The notes under the pieces were generated by a model. It saw only the letters and a program-made list of their open reading frames with translations. It made no database searches and had not been told where the DNA came from. A stretch of 64,000 nt of DNA from Chitinimonas sp. BJYL2 (GTDB taxonomy: Bacteria > Pseudomonadota > Gammaproteobacteria > Burkholderiales > Chitinimonadaceae). The number at the start of each line of letters is the position of its first letter. The first letter of the stretch is position 1. The translations under genes and the position numbers were made by a program. The stretch is from assembly GCF_027257935.1 (NCBI RefSeq), contig NZ_JANZKW010000005.1:1-64000 (forward strand), read 5' to 3'. This document shows, one piece after another, positions 32,927 through 39,806 of the stretch.

Positions 32927-33913
32927 ATGCGTATCGCTGTTTTTGACACCCACCGTTACGACCGTGATGCCCTGCTGGCAGCCAATTCGCGCTACGGGCA
33001 CGATCTGAGCTTTTTCGAGGCGCGCCTCAATCGCGATACCGCTGCCCTTGCGCAGGGCTTTGAAGTGGTGTGCCCCTTTGTGAATTGCCGACTTGATGCC
33101 GCCACACTGACCCAACTGGCGGCAGGTGGCACGCGTCTGGTCGCGCTGCGTGCCGCTGGTTTCAACGGCATCGACCTGCCCGCCGCCAAGGCCAACGGCA
33201 TCGCCGTCGTCCGCGTACCGGCCTATTCCCCGCACGCAGTCGCCGAACATGCGTTCGCCCTGCTGCTGACACTGGTGCGCAAGACTCATCGCGCCTACAA
33301 CCGGGTCCGCGAGGCCGATTTTTCACTGGACGGCCTGGTCGGCTTTGATCTGGCGGGCAAAACCTTCGGGATTGTCGGCCTTGGCCGCATCGGTCTCGTT
33401 GCCGCACGTATCGCCCACGGTTTCGGCTGCCGTGTCCTGGTGAGCGACCCGGCGGCCAGCCTGCCTGCCGACTTGCCGCTGACGCAGGTCGATCTGTCCA
33501 CCTTGCTGAAGCAGAGCGATATCGTTTCCCTGCATGTGCCGCTCCTGCCCGCCACACGCCACCTGATCGACGCCGCCGCACTGGCGCAGCTGAAACCCGG
33601 CGCCATTCTCATCAACACCAGCCGCGGCGGCCTGATCGACAGTCAGGCTCTGTTGGCCACGCTCAAAGCCGGCAAGCTCGGTGGCGTGGCACTGGATGTG
33701 TATGAACTCGAAGAAGGCGTATTCTTTGAAGACCTGTCCGGCACCGGCCTTGCGGATGATGTGCTGGCGCGGCTGACGACCTTCCCGAATGTGCTGATTA
33801 CCTCCCACCAGGGTTTTCTGACCCATGAGGCCTTGGCGAATATCGCCGATACCACCCTGGACAATGTGCGGGCCTTCTCGCTTGGCGAGGTACTGAAGAA
33901 TCAGGTCGGCTAG
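32927..33913 (+). CDS. ldhA: Fermentative D-lactate dehydrogenase-like 2-hydroxyacid dehydrogenase (328 aa)
   Basis: NAD-dependent reduction of pyruvate to D-lactate. The sequence follows Ldh[21 protein letters not shown] at the start, [36 protein letters not shown], the Rossmann motif GLGRIG, the catalytic Arg in [15 protein letters not shown], Glu in [17 protein letters not shown], and the catalytic His in [12 protein letters not shown]. The long [11 protein letters not shown] insertion separates LdhA from other D-2-hydroxyacid dehydrogenases. Single gene upstream of the bufferin cluster, on the same strand. Confidence 0.93.
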
Positions 33914-33971
33914 GCAACGAGCGCACACCGTTCATGTCCAATTCAGCCCGCCGGGACGAGCATGCGCAATA

Positions 33972-33988
33972 GGCAGAAAAATTCTGCC
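33972..33988 (+). other. Hairpin between ldhA and the bufferin cluster
   Basis: 7-bp stem GGCAGAA / TTCTGCC with an AAA loop. There is no T-run after it, so it is a weak terminator at best; it ends two bases before the -35 of the next promoter and could instead be an operator-like dyad. Confidence 0.45.
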
Positions 33989-33990
33989 GC

Positions 33991-34018
33991 TTGCATGTAA
34001 GCCCCGCGGCACTATGAT
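33991..34018 (+). promoter_or_regulatory. Promoter of the bufferin cluster
   Basis: TTGCAT (33991-33996) and TATGAT (34013-34018) with a 16-base spacer form a good sigma-70 promoter 59 bases before the precursor start. Overlapping it, GTAAGC (33997-34002) and CGACGA (34019-34024) with 16 bases between resemble the GTAAC-type ECF-sigma promoters reported for some bufferin operons. Which one is used is not known. Confidence 0.55.
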
Positions 34019-34076
34019 CGACGAAGGCAGGCGGCACTCTTGCCCGACAGTATCCTCACTCAACAGGAGTCACGAC

Positions 34077-34349
34077 ATGGATAAGAAACAAGCCCTGATC
34101 ACCGGCGCACTGAGCAGCCTGATCGCCCTCGGCCTCTCCAGCGGCGCCGTTGCCGACGACAAGGCCGCCAAGGAAAAATGCTACGGCGTCGCCAAGGCCG
34201 GCAAGAACGATTGCGCTGCCGCCAATGGCAGCCATAGCTGCGCGGGCCAGGCCAAGACCGATAACGACGCCAACGAATGGAAGTACGTCGCCAAGGGCAC
34301 CTGTGAAAAAATGGGTGGCAGCACCAAGCCGGGCGAAAAGAAGAGCTGA
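34077..34349 (+). CDS. bufA: Bufferin-type precursor peptide, DUF2282/BufA family (90 aa)
   Basis: Precursor of a probable ribosomally made, modified metal-binding peptide. Residues 1-26 are a signal peptide ([20 protein letters not shown], cut after AVA). The core carries exactly four Cys: 35 ([14 protein letters not shown]), 46, 55 ([10 protein letters not shown]) and 76 (KGTCEKMGG), the conserved DUF2282 pattern. Family knowledge: such precursors are modified on Cys by a DUF692/MNIO enzyme with a DUF2063 partner, exported, and bind copper in the periplasm. Here those two genes follow directly. The start at 34077 follows AGGAG; an upstream start would bury the signal peptide. The modified state is inferred, not seen. 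Confidence 0.9.
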
Positions 34350-34382
34350 GCGGCTTAGTCAGCATTCCACCGTTACACGGAG

Positions 34383-34406
34383 CGGGTGGCGCGAGCCACC
34401 CGTTTT
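34383..34406 (+). terminator. Terminator-like hairpin between bufA and bufB
   Basis: 8-bp GC-rich stem CGGGTGGC / GCCACCCG with GNRA loop GCGA followed by TTTT. It sits after the precursor gene and ends three bases before the bufB start. Likely an attenuator that lowers expression of the enzymes relative to the precursor, or a structured spacer in the bufB ribosome-binding region (CGGAG lies at 34378-34382). Confidence 0.65.
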
Positions 34407-34409
34407 CAT

Positions 34410-35246
34410 ATGTCTCTCACCACCTTGCCTCACGCTGCCGGTATCGGCCTGCGCCTGCCGCACATCCGCGAAGTCATCGACACGCGGCCTGCCGTGGCCT
34501 GGTTCGAGGTCCACGCCGAGAACTATTTTGGCGGTGGCGCCAACCGCGCGGCGTTACGGCGCGTGCGGACCGACTATCCGATCAGCATCCACGGCGTGGG
34601 GCTGGGGCTAGGTTCCGCGGTACCGCTGGATAAGGCGCACCTCGCGGCGCTACGCGAGCTGGTGGACGAGATCGAACCCGCCGCCGTCTCCGAGCACCTG
34701 TGCTGGAACCGCACCGCCGACGAATGCTTCAACGATCTGCTGCCCCTGCCCTACACAGAAACGGCCCTGCACCATATGGCAGCCCAGGTCGACGCCGCGC
34801 AAACAGCGCTGGGCCGGCCGCTGCTGATCGAGAACCTGTCGTCCTATGTGGCTTTTCGCGACGATGCCATCGCCGAGGCCGAGTTTCTGGCCGAACTGAG
34901 CCAGCGCACGGGGTGCGGGCTCCTGCTGGATCTGAACAATCTTTACGTCAACGAACACAATCTGGGCCGTGATGCGCGCGCCGCTATCGCCGCATTGCCG
35001 GTAGAGGCCGTTGCCGAAATCCATCTTGCCGGCTTCGAGAAACGCGATGACGACCTCTGGCTCGATACCCACGGCACACCCGTGTGTGATGCGGTGTGGG
35101 ACCTGCTGGATGTGGCACTGGCACGTTTCGGCGCCCTGCCGGTGCTGCTGGAGCGTGATACCCATCTGCCGGCCTTTGCCGATCTGCAACACGAAGCGGC
35201 GCGTGCGCAATTGGCGCTCGATACCTGGGTGGGGTCAACGCCATGA
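34410..35246 (+). CDS. bufB: DUF692 / MNIO-family peptide-modifying enzyme BufB (278 aa)
   Basis: TIM-barrel multinuclear iron oxidase family (formerly DUF692; includes MbnB) that oxidatively modifies cysteines of precursor peptides. Conserved blocks: GIGLRLPHIREVI, WFEVHAENYF, SIHGVGLGLGS, SEHLCWNRT, LPLPYTETAL, LIENLSSYV, LLDLNNLYVNEHN, EIHLAGFE, DTHGTPV and LERDTHLP, containing the His, Glu and Asp iron ligands. The ATG at 34410 lies right behind a hairpin and has no ordinary Shine-Dalgarno; a GTG at 34386 is possible but adds non-conserved residues. The stop overlaps bufC (ATGA). Confidence 0.92.
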   Translation: MSLTTLPHAAGIGLRLPHIREVIDTRPAVAWFEVHAENYFGGGANRAALRRVRTDYPISIHGVGLGLGSAVPLDKAHLAALRELVDEIEPAAVSEHLCWNRTADECFNDLLPLPYTETALHHMAAQVDAAQTALGRPLLIENLSSYVAFRDDAIAEAEFLAELSQRTGCGLLLDLNNLYVNEHNLGRDARAAIAALPVEAVAEIHLAGFEKRDDDLWLDTHGTPVCDAVWDLLDVALARFGALPVLLERDTHLPAFADLQHEAARAQLALDTWVGSTP

Positions 35247-36010
35247 ATCGCCCGCTTTCCCGGCAACTGGGCGATTTCGCCCGCGCCATGCACGATACCG
35301 ATATCGCGCAACAGCTGTTTGGCGATAGCGCCCGAGGGCACAGTGCCTACGCCAACAACGCCCTGTTCAATCGCGCCGACGCGCTGGCCGAGGCCTTCCC
35401 GGTAGTGCGGCAGCTGGTGGGGGATGACTTTTTCGGTGCGATGGCGCGCGCCCATGCCCGCGCCGAGCCGTCGCGCTCCGGTGATCTGCATGCCTATGGC
35501 GAACGTTTTGCCGACTTCATCGCCACCTTCGCGCCTGCGCAGGAGCTTCCCTATCTGGCCGACTGCGCAAAGCTGGACTGGCTGTGTCACCGCGCTTACT
35601 ACGCACCGGACCACACGCTGCTGCGGCTCGAGGCGCTGGCGGACATCCCTGCCGAACAGCACGGTGCGCTGGTCTGGTCGCTGGCGCCTTCGGCGGCACT
35701 GATGCAATCCCGCTGGCCGGTAGCGAGTTTATGGCTTGCGCACGAGTCACTGGCGCAAGGGCATGAGGCCAGTTTTCCCTCGCCCGATCAGGGTGGCGAG
35801 CGTGTACTCGTTTACCGCGATGCCATGCTCAAGGTGCGCGTGCGCCGCTTGCTGGCATCGGATGCCGCCTTCCTGCAGGCCTGCGCAGCGGGCCTGCCGA
35901 TGGCCGAGGCGCTCGAACGCGCGCTCGATGAAGACATGGATTTTGATCTGGGGCTGTCATTGCAGCGCTGGGTGGCCGACCAAGTAGTGTCGGAATTTCA
36001 TCTGGAGTAA
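35243..36010 (+). CDS. bufC: DUF2063 partner protein BufC (255 aa)
   Basis: Soluble protein with an N-terminal DUF2063 domain (about 5-95: LSRQLGDFARAMHD, SAYANNALFNRADALAEAFPVVRQLVGDDFFGAMARAHARAEPSRSGDLHAYGERFADFI) and a C-terminal alpha/beta part. Members accompany MNIO enzymes and are thought to recognise the precursor and present it to the enzyme, as MbnC does for MbnB. The 4-base overlap with bufB implies stoichiometric synthesis of a BufB-BufC complex. No catalytic motif is seen. Confidence 0.88.
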   Translation: MNRPLSRQLGDFARAMHDTDIAQQLFGDSARGHSAYANNALFNRADALAEAFPVVRQLVGDDFFGAMARAHARAEPSRSGDLHAYGERFADFIATFAPAQELPYLADCAKLDWLCHRAYYAPDHTLLRLEALADIPAEQHGALVWSLAPSAALMQSRWPVASLWLAHESLAQGHEASFPSPDQGGERVLVYRDAMLKVRVRRLLASDAAFLQACAAGLPMAEALERALDEDMDFDLGLSLQRWVADQVVSEFHLE

Positions 36011-36013
36011 TGC

Positions 36014-36499
36014 ATGCACCCTGCCACCGCGCATCTGATCCGCGCCCATCAATGCCTCGTCCACGGCCTGGCGCAATGGCTAGCGCCAATCGCAACCCTG
36101 GTGACACGTCTCTACGTGGCGCAGGTGTTCTTTCGTGCCGGCCTCAGCAAGATCGAAGATTGGGACACCACTGTGTTCCTGTTTACCGAGGAATATCGCA
36201 CGCCCCTGCTGTCACCTGCCCTTGCCGCTCTGGCAGGTACGGCCGGCGAACTGATCCTGCCGGTACTGCTGGCACTGGGTCTGGCTGGCAGACTGGGGGC
36301 GCTGGGCCTGTTTGCCGTCAATGCGATGGCGGTGGTTTCCTACTGGCACGTGCTCGGTACGCCCGAGCAGGCGGCAGGCCTGACGCACCATCTGCACTGG
36401 GGCTTGCTGCTGATGCTGCTGGCTGGGTACGGTCCGGGCAAACTATCGCTGGATACGCTGCTCACCCGCTGGTGCGGCAAGTGCAGCGCCTCCCACTGA
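36014..36499 (+). CDS. DoxX-family membrane protein of the bufferin cluster (161 aa)
   Basis: Four-helix inner-membrane protein of the DoxX family. The family start is visible (VTRLYVAQVFFRAGLSKIEDWDTTVFLFTEEY), as are LAGTAGELILPVLLALGLAGRLGALGLFAVNAMAVVSYWHVL and a last helix HLHWGLLLMLLAGYGPGKLSLD. DoxX proteins are frequent last genes of DUF2282-DUF692-DUF2063 clusters; the role there is not settled (redox or export support has been suggested). It begins 3 bases after bufC. Its stop codon directly abuts the stop of the convergent gene at 36500. Confidence 0.85.
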   Translation: MHPATAHLIRAHQCLVHGLAQWLAPIATLVTRLYVAQVFFRAGLSKIEDWDTTVFLFTEEYRTPLLSPALAALAGTAGELILPVLLALGLAGRLGALGLFAVNAMAVVSYWHVLGTPEQAAGLTHHLHWGLLLMLLAGYGPGKLSLDTLLTRWCGKCSASH

Positions 36500-37102
36500 C
36501 TAAGGACGGCCTTGCACCGCTGGCGGCGTCAACGCTGGTGGCGGTAGATTCTGCGGCGTGAACGACCCCGGTGCTTGCGGCACGATACGTTCGCGGTTGC
36601 CCATGTTCCAGCGGGCGCAGTACCACTTGGTCTGCTGGTTGGTCGTGCCCACGAGTACCGACATGGTATCGGTAATGTAGCGAACGCCATCGGCCGTATT
36701 GATGGGCCGGAAGGTCACACCCAGCGTCCGTTCGATCTGCTGTTTGGTGGATTCGACCGGCTGGGTGATCAATGCACCGATCATCAGGGCACGGCTTTCA
36801 TCGATATTGGTAAACACTTCCAGCGTGGCGGCACCGCCAAGCTGCGCACCCTGCGAATTCCACCAGCGGGCCTCGCCCCAATCGCGGATGCTGGCTTGCA
36901 GATGCTTGTTGAAGTACTCATGCCAGAAGGTGGTGCTCCAGTCGGAGCGGCACAACAGGGCCGATTCCACCTTGTCGTTGAAGTCGGTAGGCAAGGCATG
37001 CACCTGGGCAGCCAGCAGCGCGCCGGCCACCCAGATGGCACAGCGGCTAACCCGAGTTGCGCAGGCCTGCGGCAATCCCGTTGATGGTGAGGTGAATCGC
37101 AT
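36500..37102 (-). CDS. Exported protein of unknown function (200 aa)
   Basis: Not recognised. A probable signal peptide (CAIWVAGALLAAQVHA, cut before LPTDFNDKV) sits after an unusually long basic N-terminal part. The mature part has paired Cys (LLCRSDW and WYCARWNMGN), blocks rich in Thr/Asn (GALITQPVESTKQQIERTLGVTF, ADGVRYITDTMSVLVGTTNQ), and a Pro-rich tail (SFTPQNLPPPALTPPAVQG). The ATG at 37102 overlaps the ppc stop by 56 bases; GAGG lies 9 bases upstream. Likely co-transcribed with ppc, but no functional link is evident. Confidence 0.65.
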   Translation of the reverse strand: MRFTSPSTGLPQACATRVSRCAIWVAGALLAAQVHALPTDFNDKVESALLCRSDWSTTFWHEYFNKHLQASIRDWGEARWWNSQGAQLGGAATLEVFTNIDESRALMIGALITQPVESTKQQIERTLGVTFRPINTADGVRYITDTMSVLVGTTNQQTKWYCARWNMGNRERIVPQAPGSFTPQNLPPPALTPPAVQGRP

Positions 37103-39806
37103 ACAGCACATCCTCGCTCTCGTCGCCCTCGCGGAACCGCTTCACCAGATCGACTTGCAGGTGGTTCAGCGGGTCCAGATAGGGTAGCCGGTTCTTGAGG
37201 CTACGCGCCAGCAGCGGGTTATCGCCGAGTAGTTCCTTGTGTCCGGTGATCGCGAGTACGGCATCCACGGCACGGCGCCACTCCTGCTTGATGCGGCCGA
37301 AGATCGCCTCGGCAATCGCCGGGTCCTTCACCAAGGTCGCGTAGCGGCTCGCAATATGGATATCGCTCTTGGCCAGCACCATCTCCATATTGCTGATGGT
37401 GGAGCGGAAGAACGGCCATTCGCGGTACAGGCGGGCCAGCTCTTCAATCCCGGCCTCACCCTTCTCGTCGCGGTAGGCCGCAATCGCGGTACCAAAGCCA
37501 TACCAGCCCGGCAGCATCAGGCGGCTTTGTGCCCAGGAGAACACCCAGGGAATCGCGCGCAGATCGCCGATATGGTTGGTGGCCTTGCGCGCCGAGGGGC
37601 GGCTGCCGATATTGAGTTTGGCAATCTCCGAGATCGGCGTGGCTTCGCGGAAATAGGTGATGAAATCGGGCGTGGCATACACTAGGTCGCGGTATTCGCG
37701 GTAGGCAAGGCCCGAGAGCTTTTCGAGCAAAGCGTGGCGCTCCGGCGTATCAGCCGCAACGGCCGCTTCCGTGGGGAAGCTCGCGCTCAGCGTGGCCGCC
37801 AGCAGGGTTTCCAGGTTGCGGCGACCCACTTCGGGGTCAGCATACTTGGCGGCAATCACTTCACCCTGTTCGGTGATGCGGATCTGCCCGGCCACCGAGC
37901 CGGCGGGCTGCGCCAGAATGGCCTCATAGCTGGGGCCACCACCACGACCGACCGAGCCGCCGCGGCCATGGAACAGGCGCAGGCGTACGCCGGCTTCGGC
38001 GAACACCTCCACCAGCTTGACCTCGGCCTTGTAGAGTTCCCAGTTGCTGGTGAGGTAGCCGCCATCCTTGTTGCTGTCGGAATAGCCCAGCATGATTTCC
38101 TGCACACCAGCACGCTGATCAACCAGCTGACGCCACTGCGGCAAGGCCAGCAGGTCGCGCACGATGGCATCGCAGGCCCGCAGATCGGGAATCGTTTCGA
38201 ACAGCGGGATGATATTGACGGCCGCATGCGGCGTGGGCGAGAGCGCGATCAGACCCACTTCCTTGAGCAGCACGGCTACTTCGAGCAGGTCCGACACGCT
38301 TTGCGCGTTGGATATGATGTAGTTGGGCAAGGCCGCTGCGCCGTACTTGGCGTGGATCTCGGCGGCCGTGCGCACGATGGCCAGCTCCTTGGCGCTTTCT
38401 TCGCTGTATTGCACATAAGGCGTTTGCAGCAGGCGGGCGCTGGCCAGTTCGCGCAACAGCACTTTCTGGCGCGCTTCCTCGCTCAGCGCGGCGTAGTCCT
38501 CCAGCCCGGCTTTCTCGAACAGTTCGGCGACGACTTTCTCGTGGATGCCGCTGTGCTGGCGCATATCCAGCGGTGCCAGATGGAAACCGAATACATCGAC
38601 GGCGCGAATCAAACGCCGCAGGCGGCCGCTGGCCAGGATCGCCGAGCCATGCGCCGCCAGCGAGGCCGACAGGGCCCGCAAGTCGCCCGCCAACTCTGCC
38701 GCTGTGGCATAGGGGGCGATACCGGCATCGGCCAAGATGCCGCCGCGGAACTTGCCCAGCACATGCGCGGTAGAGAGGATGCGTTGGCGGATGGTGTTCA
38801 TGGCCAGGCGATAAGGCTCTTCGCTACGGCTGGCAGGCTGGTTGGCAAACGCCGCGCCGATCGCGTGCACGGCATCGCTGGCCTGCACCATGCGCGAGGA
38901 CAGGCTCAGCTCGCTTTCGAGCTTGGTGGCCTCTTCATAGTAAAAATCGAACGCCACCGCAGCCTGGCGGCCGACGGCATGCAGGGTGACTTCGGGCACC
39001 ACAAAGGGGTTGCCGTCACGGTCACCGCCGATCCAGCAGCCCACGTGCATGAATACCGGCAGCTCGACCGGCTCACCGAGCAAGGCGCTCAAACGGTCTT
39101 CAAGTTCGATGTAGATGCGTGGCAGCTGCTTGAGGAAGGTGGAGCGGAAATAGCTGATGCCGTTTTCGATTTCATCGCTGACCTGCAGCTTGAAGGCGCG
39201 GATTTCGCGCGTCTGCCACAGCGTGAGGATCACGCGCTGCAGGGCGATATCGTTTTCTTCCAGCTCTTCGGGCATCAGCGTCTGCCGGTCGCGCATGGTC
39301 AGCGCGCGGGCGATCGTGCGTTCGCAATCGAGCAGGGTCTTGCGTTGTACTTCGGTCGGGTGCGCGGTCAATACCGGGGCGATCAGTGTGGCAGCCACCA
39401 GGTTCTTGATCGCCTCGGCCGAAACACCGCGCGCTGTCAGCTCGTCGAGCGAGTGGGTGAGGCTGCCGCGCTGTGCCGGGCTGCGCTGGATGCGGTGGTA
39501 GCGACGGCGGCGGTTGTGGTGCAGGTCTTCGGCAATGTTCGACAGGTGCGAGAAGTAGCTGAACGCACGCGCCACAGCCACCGTCGTATCGTGGCTCAGA
39601 TTCGCCAGCGTGGCGGCCAGCTCATCGGCCGCGCTGGAATCGGCTTCCCACACGAAGCGGCTGGCCAGCTCGCGGATCGCCTCGATCTGCTTGAGCGTGT
39701 CGGTGCCCGACTCACGCTCGATGGTATCGGCCAGCATGGTGGCCAGCAGGTTGAGATCCTGCTCCAGCGGCAGGTCTTTGGCGGTAGCGTTGTCGTACAG
39801 GGCCAT
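37047..39806 (-). CDS. ppc: Phosphoenolpyruvate carboxylase (919 aa)
   Basis: Anaplerotic enzyme making oxaloacetate from PEP and bicarbonate. The catalytic His is in LTAHPTEVQRKTLLDCE, with further active-site blocks GGDRDGNPFV, LDMRQHSGIHE, MLGYSDSNKDGGYLTSNW, FHGRGGSVGRGGGPSYEAI and the C-terminal GIAAGLRNSG. Length is normal. The ATG at 39806 was preferred to a TTG two codons earlier. A perfect 17-base palindrome at 39877-39893 may be an operator. Carbonic anhydrase in the same window could supply its bicarbonate. Confidence 0.97.
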   Translation of the reverse strand: MALYDNATAKDLPLEQDLNLLATMLADTIERESGTDTLKQIEAIRELASRFVWEADSSAADELAATLANLSHDTTVAVARAFSYFSHLSNIAEDLHHNRRRRYHRIQRSPAQRGSLTHSLDELTARGVSAEAIKNLVAATLIAPVLTAHPTEVQRKTLLDCERTIARALTMRDRQTLMPEELEENDIALQRVILTLWQTREIRAFKLQVSDEIENGISYFRSTFLKQLPRIYIELEDRLSALLGEPVELPVFMHVGCWIGGDRDGNPFVVPEVTLHAVGRQAAVAFDFYYEEATKLESELSLSSRMVQASDAVHAIGAAFANQPASRSEEPYRLAMNTIRQRILSTAHVLGKFRGGILADAGIAPYATAAELAGDLRALSASLAAHGSAILASGRLRRLIRAVDVFGFHLAPLDMRQHSGIHEKVVAELFEKAGLEDYAALSEEARQKVLLRELASARLLQTPYVQYSEESAKELAIVRTAAEIHAKYGAAALPNYIISNAQSVSDLLEVAVLLKEVGLIALSPTPHAAVNIIPLFETIPDLRACDAIVRDLLALPQWRQLVDQRAGVQEIMLGYSDSNKDGGYLTSNWELYKAEVKLVEVFAEAGVRLRLFHGRGGSVGRGGGPSYEAILAQPAGSVAGQIRITEQGEVIAAKYADPEVGRRNLETLLAATLSASFPTEAAVAADTPERHALLEKLSGLAYREYRDLVYATPDFITYFREATPISEIAKLNIGSRPSARKATNHIGDLRAIPWVFSWAQSRLMLPGWYGFGTAIAAYRDEKGEAGIEELARLYREWPFFRSTISNMEMVLAKSDIHIASRYATLVKDPAIAEAIFGRIKQEWRRAVDAVLAITGHKELLGDNPLLARSLKNRLPYLDPLNHLQVDLVKRFREGDESEDVLYAIHLTINGIAAGLRNSG

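Follow-up and report, generated by a model that had tools for sequence, protein, structure and literature searches.

Positions 33,991 to 36,499 of a 64,000-nucleotide stretch of Chitinimonas sp. BJYL2 (contig NZ_JANZKW010000005.1, positions 1 to 64,000; hereafter the window) hold four genes, bufA, bufB, bufC and doxX, which lie on the plus strand between 34077 and 36499 with all frames intact (Table 1). An earlier note on this DNA, made from the letters alone, had read them as a DUF2282 precursor, a DUF692/MNIO enzyme, a DUF2063 partner and a DoxX protein, arranged as in bufferin systems. All four families were found in this order and on this strand, and those features of a Buf1 cluster that can be tested by sequence or model were present in the Pfam, NCBIfam and structure matches. 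Because every Pfam score exceeds its cut-off and BufB also passes the model NF050167 'MNIO family bufferin maturase' (360.9 bits, cut-off 310), the gene order is not due to chance and the names are correct. Judged from its sequence, the locus is a Buf1 bufferin (captophorin) operon, complete and intact, of the family variously named bufferin, gig operon or captophorin. Our full explanation combines this operon with a thiooxazole copper peptide as the likely product, a promoter of the extracytoplasmic function (ECF) type under presumed control of an unlinked sigmaE-like factor, and putative attenuation by a hairpin; we give it, as a whole, a probability of about 0.87.

The operon and its expected product

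The precursor BufA has the 90 residues and the four cysteines (Cys35, Cys46, Cys55 and Cys76) described earlier, and all four are kept in 10 other aligned precursors of relatives. A putative Sec signal peptide can be made out by eye (n-region KK, hydrophobic core, AVA/DD site; similar in relatives), with likely cleavage, also judged by eye, after Ala26. In six other genomes of the genus, precursor identity is 81-94% (signal peptide included), versus 72-78% for the enzyme and 59-70% for the covered part of the partner. Strong conservation of the signal peptide would be expected if it also serves for recognition, a role that has been suggested for HvfA and bufferin (PMC13419390; here and below, published work is cited from the available parts of the papers).

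BufB aligns with the solved MNIO structure 3BWW (E-value 3.8e-35). The full motif set that had been claimed for the enzyme was recovered, in that the motifs common to BufB and 3BWW are present (His61, His96, Glu141/Asn142, Asp174 with Asn176/Asn177, His205, Asp219/His221 and Glu248 in the alignment). For HvfB, activity is reported to be lost when an Asn, an Asp or a His in the predicted third iron site is exchanged (PMC13419390). We prefer the ATG start of bufB; an alternative GTG 24 nt upstream, which sits within the hairpin discussed below, is less likely. At its end, bufB shares positions 35243-35246 with bufC, which is the expected ATGA overlap of enzyme and partner.

The PF09836 match of BufC covers residues 11-93 of 255, and sequence searches of the PDB gave no match for this protein. 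As a sequence-only match was lacking, a structure model was built from 30 aligned sequences (predicted local distance difference test score, pLDDT, 92.9). Its top Foldseek matches were TglI (8hi7, E-value 4.3e-7) and NGO1945 (3dee, E-value 2.9e-5), and these two, TglI (the partner of TglH) and NGO1945, are the proteins that published bufferin work uses as reference MNIO partners (PMC12452194). An isolated RRE (TbiB1) matched the model weakly (E-value 5.5). With a whole model that resembles TglI and NGO1945, BufC appears to be a DUF2063 partner of the usual size (about 250-260 residues) with a C-terminal RRE-like domain.

The same order of a four-cysteine DUF2282 precursor, MNIO, DUF2063 and DoxX is described for Buf1 clusters and for Caulobacter CC3252-CC3257 (PMC12452194, PMC3511200). 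The gigPABT genes of Cupriavidus metallidurans likewise encode, in this order, a four-cysteine periplasmic peptide, a metal-binding enzyme, a DUF2063 protein and a DoxX-like protein; they are induced by copper and gold and contribute to copper resistance (PMC10304878).

Such clusters have been assigned to cysteine-derived 5-thiooxazoles and to copper sequestration in the periplasm (PMC12452194; PMC13097082), as the earlier note had stated for the family. On the chemistry, its statement that cysteines become thiooxazole-type rings stands with a refinement, as only the two central cysteines of Buf1 precursors are reported to be modified, with a disulphide joining the first to the last (PMC12452194). 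5-Thiooxazoles have been found in all characterized cases of the class, and the products 'generally bind Cu' (PMC13097082). In the captophorins fontiphorin, oxazolin and gonophorin, an MNIO and a PME1 partner install 5-thiooxazoles, as expected here, with a loss of 4 H per modified cysteine in fontiphorin; their precursors, however, are of the EGKCG-repeat type, and fontiphorin carries seven thiooxazoles versus the two expected here (PMC13097082).

By analogy, we infer that this copy is active, and that Cys46 and Cys55 of BufA are modified and Cys35 and Cys76 bridged. BufB, as an iron oxidase, would act together with BufC on BufA still bearing its Sec signal peptide and convert Cys46 and Cys55 to 5-thiooxazoles. 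The modified precursor would be exported by Sec, Cys35 and Cys76 would form their disulphide, and the mature peptide would bind surplus Cu(I) once in the periplasm. DoxX may act as a membrane accessory, in an uncertain role.

MNIO and DUF2282 are each represented by a single gene in the 3.45-Mb genome. Chitinimonas is not known as a pathogen. Across the ten genomes of the family that were searched, DUF2282 was found in all (13 genes), and so was MNIO. The closest named relative found for BufB is the Chitinimonas taiwanensis protein (75%), in a search that may leave out records very near the window. A D-2-hydroxyacid dehydrogenase gene adjoins bufA in four of the six other genus genomes (G003-G006; not G001 or G002), and homologues of the 203-residue protein encoded downstream of doxX occur near the operon also in L015, L016, L142 and L150. 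With these neighbours kept in relatives, the operon is probably old chromosomal equipment. Elsewhere in the genus, two adjoining, divergent MNIO-like stretches were seen in G004 (L140 and L141, C155 12746-14254; 66 and 105 bits).

Table 1. Positions of the features at the bufferin locus, numbered along the window.
Feature	Position	Strand	Description
Putative ECF-sigma-like promoter, TGTAAG-N17-CGACGAAGG	33996-34027	+	81 nt before the ATG of bufA; overlaps the rejected sigma-70 site
Ribosome-binding site AGGAGT and ATG of bufA	34062-34079	+	Read directly; identical or near-identical string in aligned relatives
bufA	34077 (ATG) to 34349 (TGA)	+	DUF2282 bufferin precursor, 90 aa; PF10048 91.3 bits, E 3.7e-26 (cut-off 22)
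GC-rich hairpin and T-run	34381-34406	+	10-bp stem, in the bufA-bufB gap
bufB	34410-35246	+	MNIO (DUF692) bufferin maturase, 278 aa from ATG; PF05114 336 bits (cut-off 25)
bufC	35243-36010	+	DUF2063 partner (PME type 1), 255 aa; PF09836 71.7 bits (cut-off 27)
doxX	36014-36499	+	DoxX-family membrane protein, 161 aa; PF07681 50.8 bits (cut-off 23.6)
Gene for 203-aa protein	36500-37111	-	Pfam and NCBIfam: no match at E 0.001

Promoter and hairpin

The 'good promoter' that the operon had been credited with was not upheld: a sigma-70 scan of 33700-36700 returned no site, with 0.7 expected by chance. The site most likely meant, TTGCAT (33991-33996) and TATGAT (34013-34018) separated by 16 nt, has 8 of 12 matches, and conservation is lacking in its -35 half. 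The aligned upstream regions of relatives instead share the consensus TGTAAG-N17-CGACCAAGG, and the box of the window, which reads TGTAAGCCCCGCGGCACTATGATCGACGAAGG, has one mismatch to TGTAAG-N16/17-CGACCAAGG; none of 200 shuffled versions of the upstream region was as good. With at most one mismatch, the box lies upstream of 9 of the 13 family DUF2282 genes (window included), 75-84 nt before the start and with 0/200 shuffles in each case. The conserved promoter element of bufA thus looks ECF-like and not sigma-70-like. The box is also found, at two mismatches or fewer, at five of the seven Buf2 (six-cysteine) loci of the family (in G001, G003, G004, G005 and G006).

Similar boxes are known from other systems. 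The promoters of the window and of Caulobacter Buf1 are both ECF-type with GTAA...CGA halves, GTAAGC-N16-CGACGAAGG in the former and GTAACC-N16-CGAA, the sigF box, in the latter (PMC3511200). The window box shares its -35 core and its spacing, though not its -10 half, with the sigmaE promoter of Neisseria, GTMAGBWTT-N12/13-CGTCTAAH (PMC2893595). Among 82 wider bufA rows, a GTAA-N17-19-CGA box was present upstream in 23 (21 of them GTAAC), versus 6 with the reversed control, and the GTAAC...CGA boxes of these wider Buf1 loci are in line with the Caulobacter box. In searches of whole genomes, a stricter pattern with variable spacer matched nine times in the ten family genomes (seven at bufA and two at one orthologous, unrelated site) versus five times for the control. 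The exact pattern, which contains CCAAGG and does not match the window's own box, had matches in 8 of 300 genomes of the order, in 5 of them at bufA, and none in the control.

A perfect palindrome upstream of the promoter, GGCAGAAAAATTCTGCC (33972-33988), resembles an operator and was rejected as such, being absent from 10 other aligned upstream regions. In G009, a second ECF-like box (one mismatch, N16) lies where bufC ends, ahead of the doxX region (L142, reverse-complement coordinate 4877) and is a possible internal promoter for doxX. Two Chitinimonas genomes have a 172-residue cysteine-rich open reading frame with 12 Cys directly before a third MNIO gene (L129 and L130, reverse-complement 938-1453; G003:C1 at about 1122 kb and G006:C9 at about 752 kb), with no obvious signal peptide and no shared promoter. 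The family member G007 has DUF2282 precursors of 115 and 100 residues in tandem (L171, 9380-10102, minus strand), which precede a second MNIO/DUF2063 pair, near a bufferin operon that bears sigma and anti-sigma genes; they, too, have no shared promoter.

The bufA-bufB hairpin recurs in 9 of the 10 family genomes (8 distinct sequences), with 97.5% of cells paired versus 34-61% in slid controls. Among these nine genomes, three pairs are changed on both sides. In the sigma-bearing operon of G007, bufA and bufB are too close for a hairpin. The bufB start of the window, just 3' of the hairpin, has no clear ribosome-binding site. Given this and its position after the precursor gene, the hairpin would favour precursor over enzyme, as an attenuator or partial terminator that leaves more precursor mRNA than enzyme mRNA. 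Outside the family it is rare (6 of the 82 wider bufA rows, 2 of these 6 being family relatives), and therefore not a general Buf1 feature. A hairpin after bufA was not met in the part of the literature covered, in which no search was aimed at the hairpin itself.

An unlinked candidate regulator

In Caulobacter, sigF and the gene of the negative regulator NrsF adjoin the Buf1 operon. In the window, no Sigma70_r4_2 match was detected, and NrsF (PF06532) had no match in the genome, in a search that detects the control in Caulobacter. In Cupriavidus, rpoQ and the predicted membrane-bound anti-sigma factor rsqA are divergent neighbours of the operon (PMC10304878), whereas here a short ZAS-type candidate is encoded elsewhere. 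This candidate anti-sigma factor has 60 residues (NF052368, 72.6 bits, cut-off 50), and its gene directly follows a sigma gene (TIGR02943, 235.7 bits, cut-off 162.2) at about 649.3-650.0 kb of contig C1 of the window genome (G000). The label sigmaE-like for this sigma factor is based on the family model and the adjoining anti-sigma gene. The ligand residues of the candidate anti-sigma factor are Cys4, His30, Cys34 and Cys37.

We take the Neisseria operon NMB2140-NMB2145 to include MNIO and DUF2063 genes (NGO1945 appears in published work) and its precursor to be, presumably, of the EGKCG type, in contrast to DUF2282 here. It is a doxX operon under an ECF sigma factor with a ZAS anti-sigma factor, MseR, for which exactly the positions Cys4, His30, Cys34 and Cys37 have been published (PMC2893595, PMC3240639). 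Its regulators lie inside the operon (PMC2893595, PMC3240639), and the candidates of the window genome are unlinked. In G007, the regulators are linked as in Neisseria: the sole MseR-like gene lies in a six-gene operon, bufA-bufB-bufC-doxX-sigma-antisigma, with the ligand residues shifted by two. The best match of the G007 sigma factor in the window genome is the candidate (L098), with 195 bits versus 45 for the next best. Neither the candidate sigma factor, its anti-sigma factor nor the G007 pair had a match at E 0.01 in the Buf1/Buf2 stretches of nine relatives (L142-L150).

Each of the ten family genomes has exactly one member of the MseR-like anti-sigma family. Among 150 genomes of the order, 65 had an anti-sigma match over the cut-off, 76 had MNIO, 52 had both and 61 had neither. 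The Fisher value for this co-occurrence (2e-10) is too small because kinship among the genomes is uncorrected, and Neisseriaceae themselves may be among the sampled genomes (NCBI assigns Chitinimonas to Neisseriales). The anti-sigma gene is no more than 10 kb away from an MNIO gene in 29 of the 65, with about 0.5 expected, and these 29 genomes fall in 22 families; counting sub-cut-off matches, linkage was seen in 34 of 73 genomes.

Together, these observations suggest that the promoter is most likely read by the unlinked sigmaE-like factor under its zinc-type (MseR-like) anti-sigma factor, and control of the window operon by this pair from a distance is, in our estimate, probable. Copper as the signal for the pair is a further and weaker step. 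A wider proposal is about as likely as not: that one unlinked Chitinimonas sigmaE/MseR-like pair commands both Buf1 and Buf2 in trans through the shared GTAAG-N16/17-CGAC promoter, and that thiooxazole-metallophore clusters, in Neisseria as well as throughout the order, have a general switch in MseR-like ZAS anti-sigma factors. Sigma and NrsF genes are reported in Buf1 but not in Buf2 clusters, as far as the available text goes (PMC12452194), and a shared unlinked regulator would explain Buf2 switching.

Opposing evidence, alternatives and meaning

Several results weigh against parts of this explanation. DoxX scores 48.5 with the HvfX model NF050144, under the cut-off of 80. The window hairpin has four T only, two of which are able to pair, and a simple terminator scan omits it. 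Good boxes are missing from 4 of the 13 DUF2282 genes, namely three without a box and one, that of the sigma-bearing operon, with three mismatches (2/200 shuffles); from two of the seven Buf2 loci (a version with a 15-nt spacer only in G002, none in G008); and from both 12-Cys loci, which lack the shared promoter. The bare motif at one mismatch or fewer had 9 matches in the 10 genomes (7 at bufA, 1 at Buf2 and 1 at another site) versus 10 for the reversed control. The motif is thus not significant genome-wide, and the case for the promoter rests on position and conservation. Its -10 half has CGAC (CGACGAAGG) where Neisseria has CGTC. At two mismatches or fewer, it was not found in the 11 kb around the candidate sigma gene (L151), so that autoregulation is not seen. 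Finally, 24 of the 76 MNIO genomes were without an over-cut-off MseR-like gene, and 13 of the 65 MseR-like genomes without MNIO.

The same operon could also be driven by the housekeeping sigma-70 factor, from TTGCAT-N16-TATGAT, or by another ECF factor, the sigmaE/MseR-like pair being uninvolved. TATGAT matches at five of six positions, relatives partly retain a TATnnT-like string just ahead of CGACC, the genome encodes other ECF genes, and the pair at the bufA promoter is a candidate link drawn from sequence. We nevertheless consider such an alternative unlikely, in view of the empty sigma-70 scan and of an alignment in which GTAAG and CGAC-AAGG are conserved and the -35 half of the sigma-70 site is not. 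Linkage of the MseR-like family to MNIO loci across the order, its place inside the bufferin operon of G007, the clear preference of the G007 sigma factor for the candidate, and the missing NrsF, which is the anti-sigma factor named for Buf1 clusters (PMC12452194), all argue for the unlinked pair instead.

A somewhat less likely alternative concerns the ligand: the peptide would buffer gold, some other thiophilic metal or an oxidant, and copper, bound incidentally, would not be the main ligand or stress. The gold induction of the homologous gig operons (PMC10304878), the existence of MerC fusions (PMC12452194) and the chromium response of the sigF-dependent Caulobacter clusters (PMC3511200) are in its favour, whereas the copper binding of thiooxazole products in general, cited above, and the report that bufferins enhance growth under copper stress (PMC12452194) speak for copper. 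That the copy is decayed or inactive is very improbable: nothing beyond the low HvfX score of DoxX points that way, and the four frames are intact, the enzyme motifs complete and the sequence conserved in the genus.

The cluster itself is ordinary, one more example of a known system, as the bufferin family has already been collected in thousands (PMC12452194). Among the literature matches listed, which included few subscription papers, none treated Chitinimonas bufferins, sigma control of bufferins or MseR with copper, and a trans sigmaE/MseR link for Buf1 and Buf2 was not met in the part of the literature covered. The regulatory link would connect the Chitinimonas DUF2282 bufferins with the sigmaE/MseR switch of Neisseria, for which the published work, in its available parts, left the activating signal unidentified (PMC2893595). 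It suggests that this signal may be copper or a similar metal. If the pair does act as a switch in trans, its natural trigger would be a thiophilic metal, Cu(I) or some other, that attacks the zinc-thiolate site of the anti-sigma factor.

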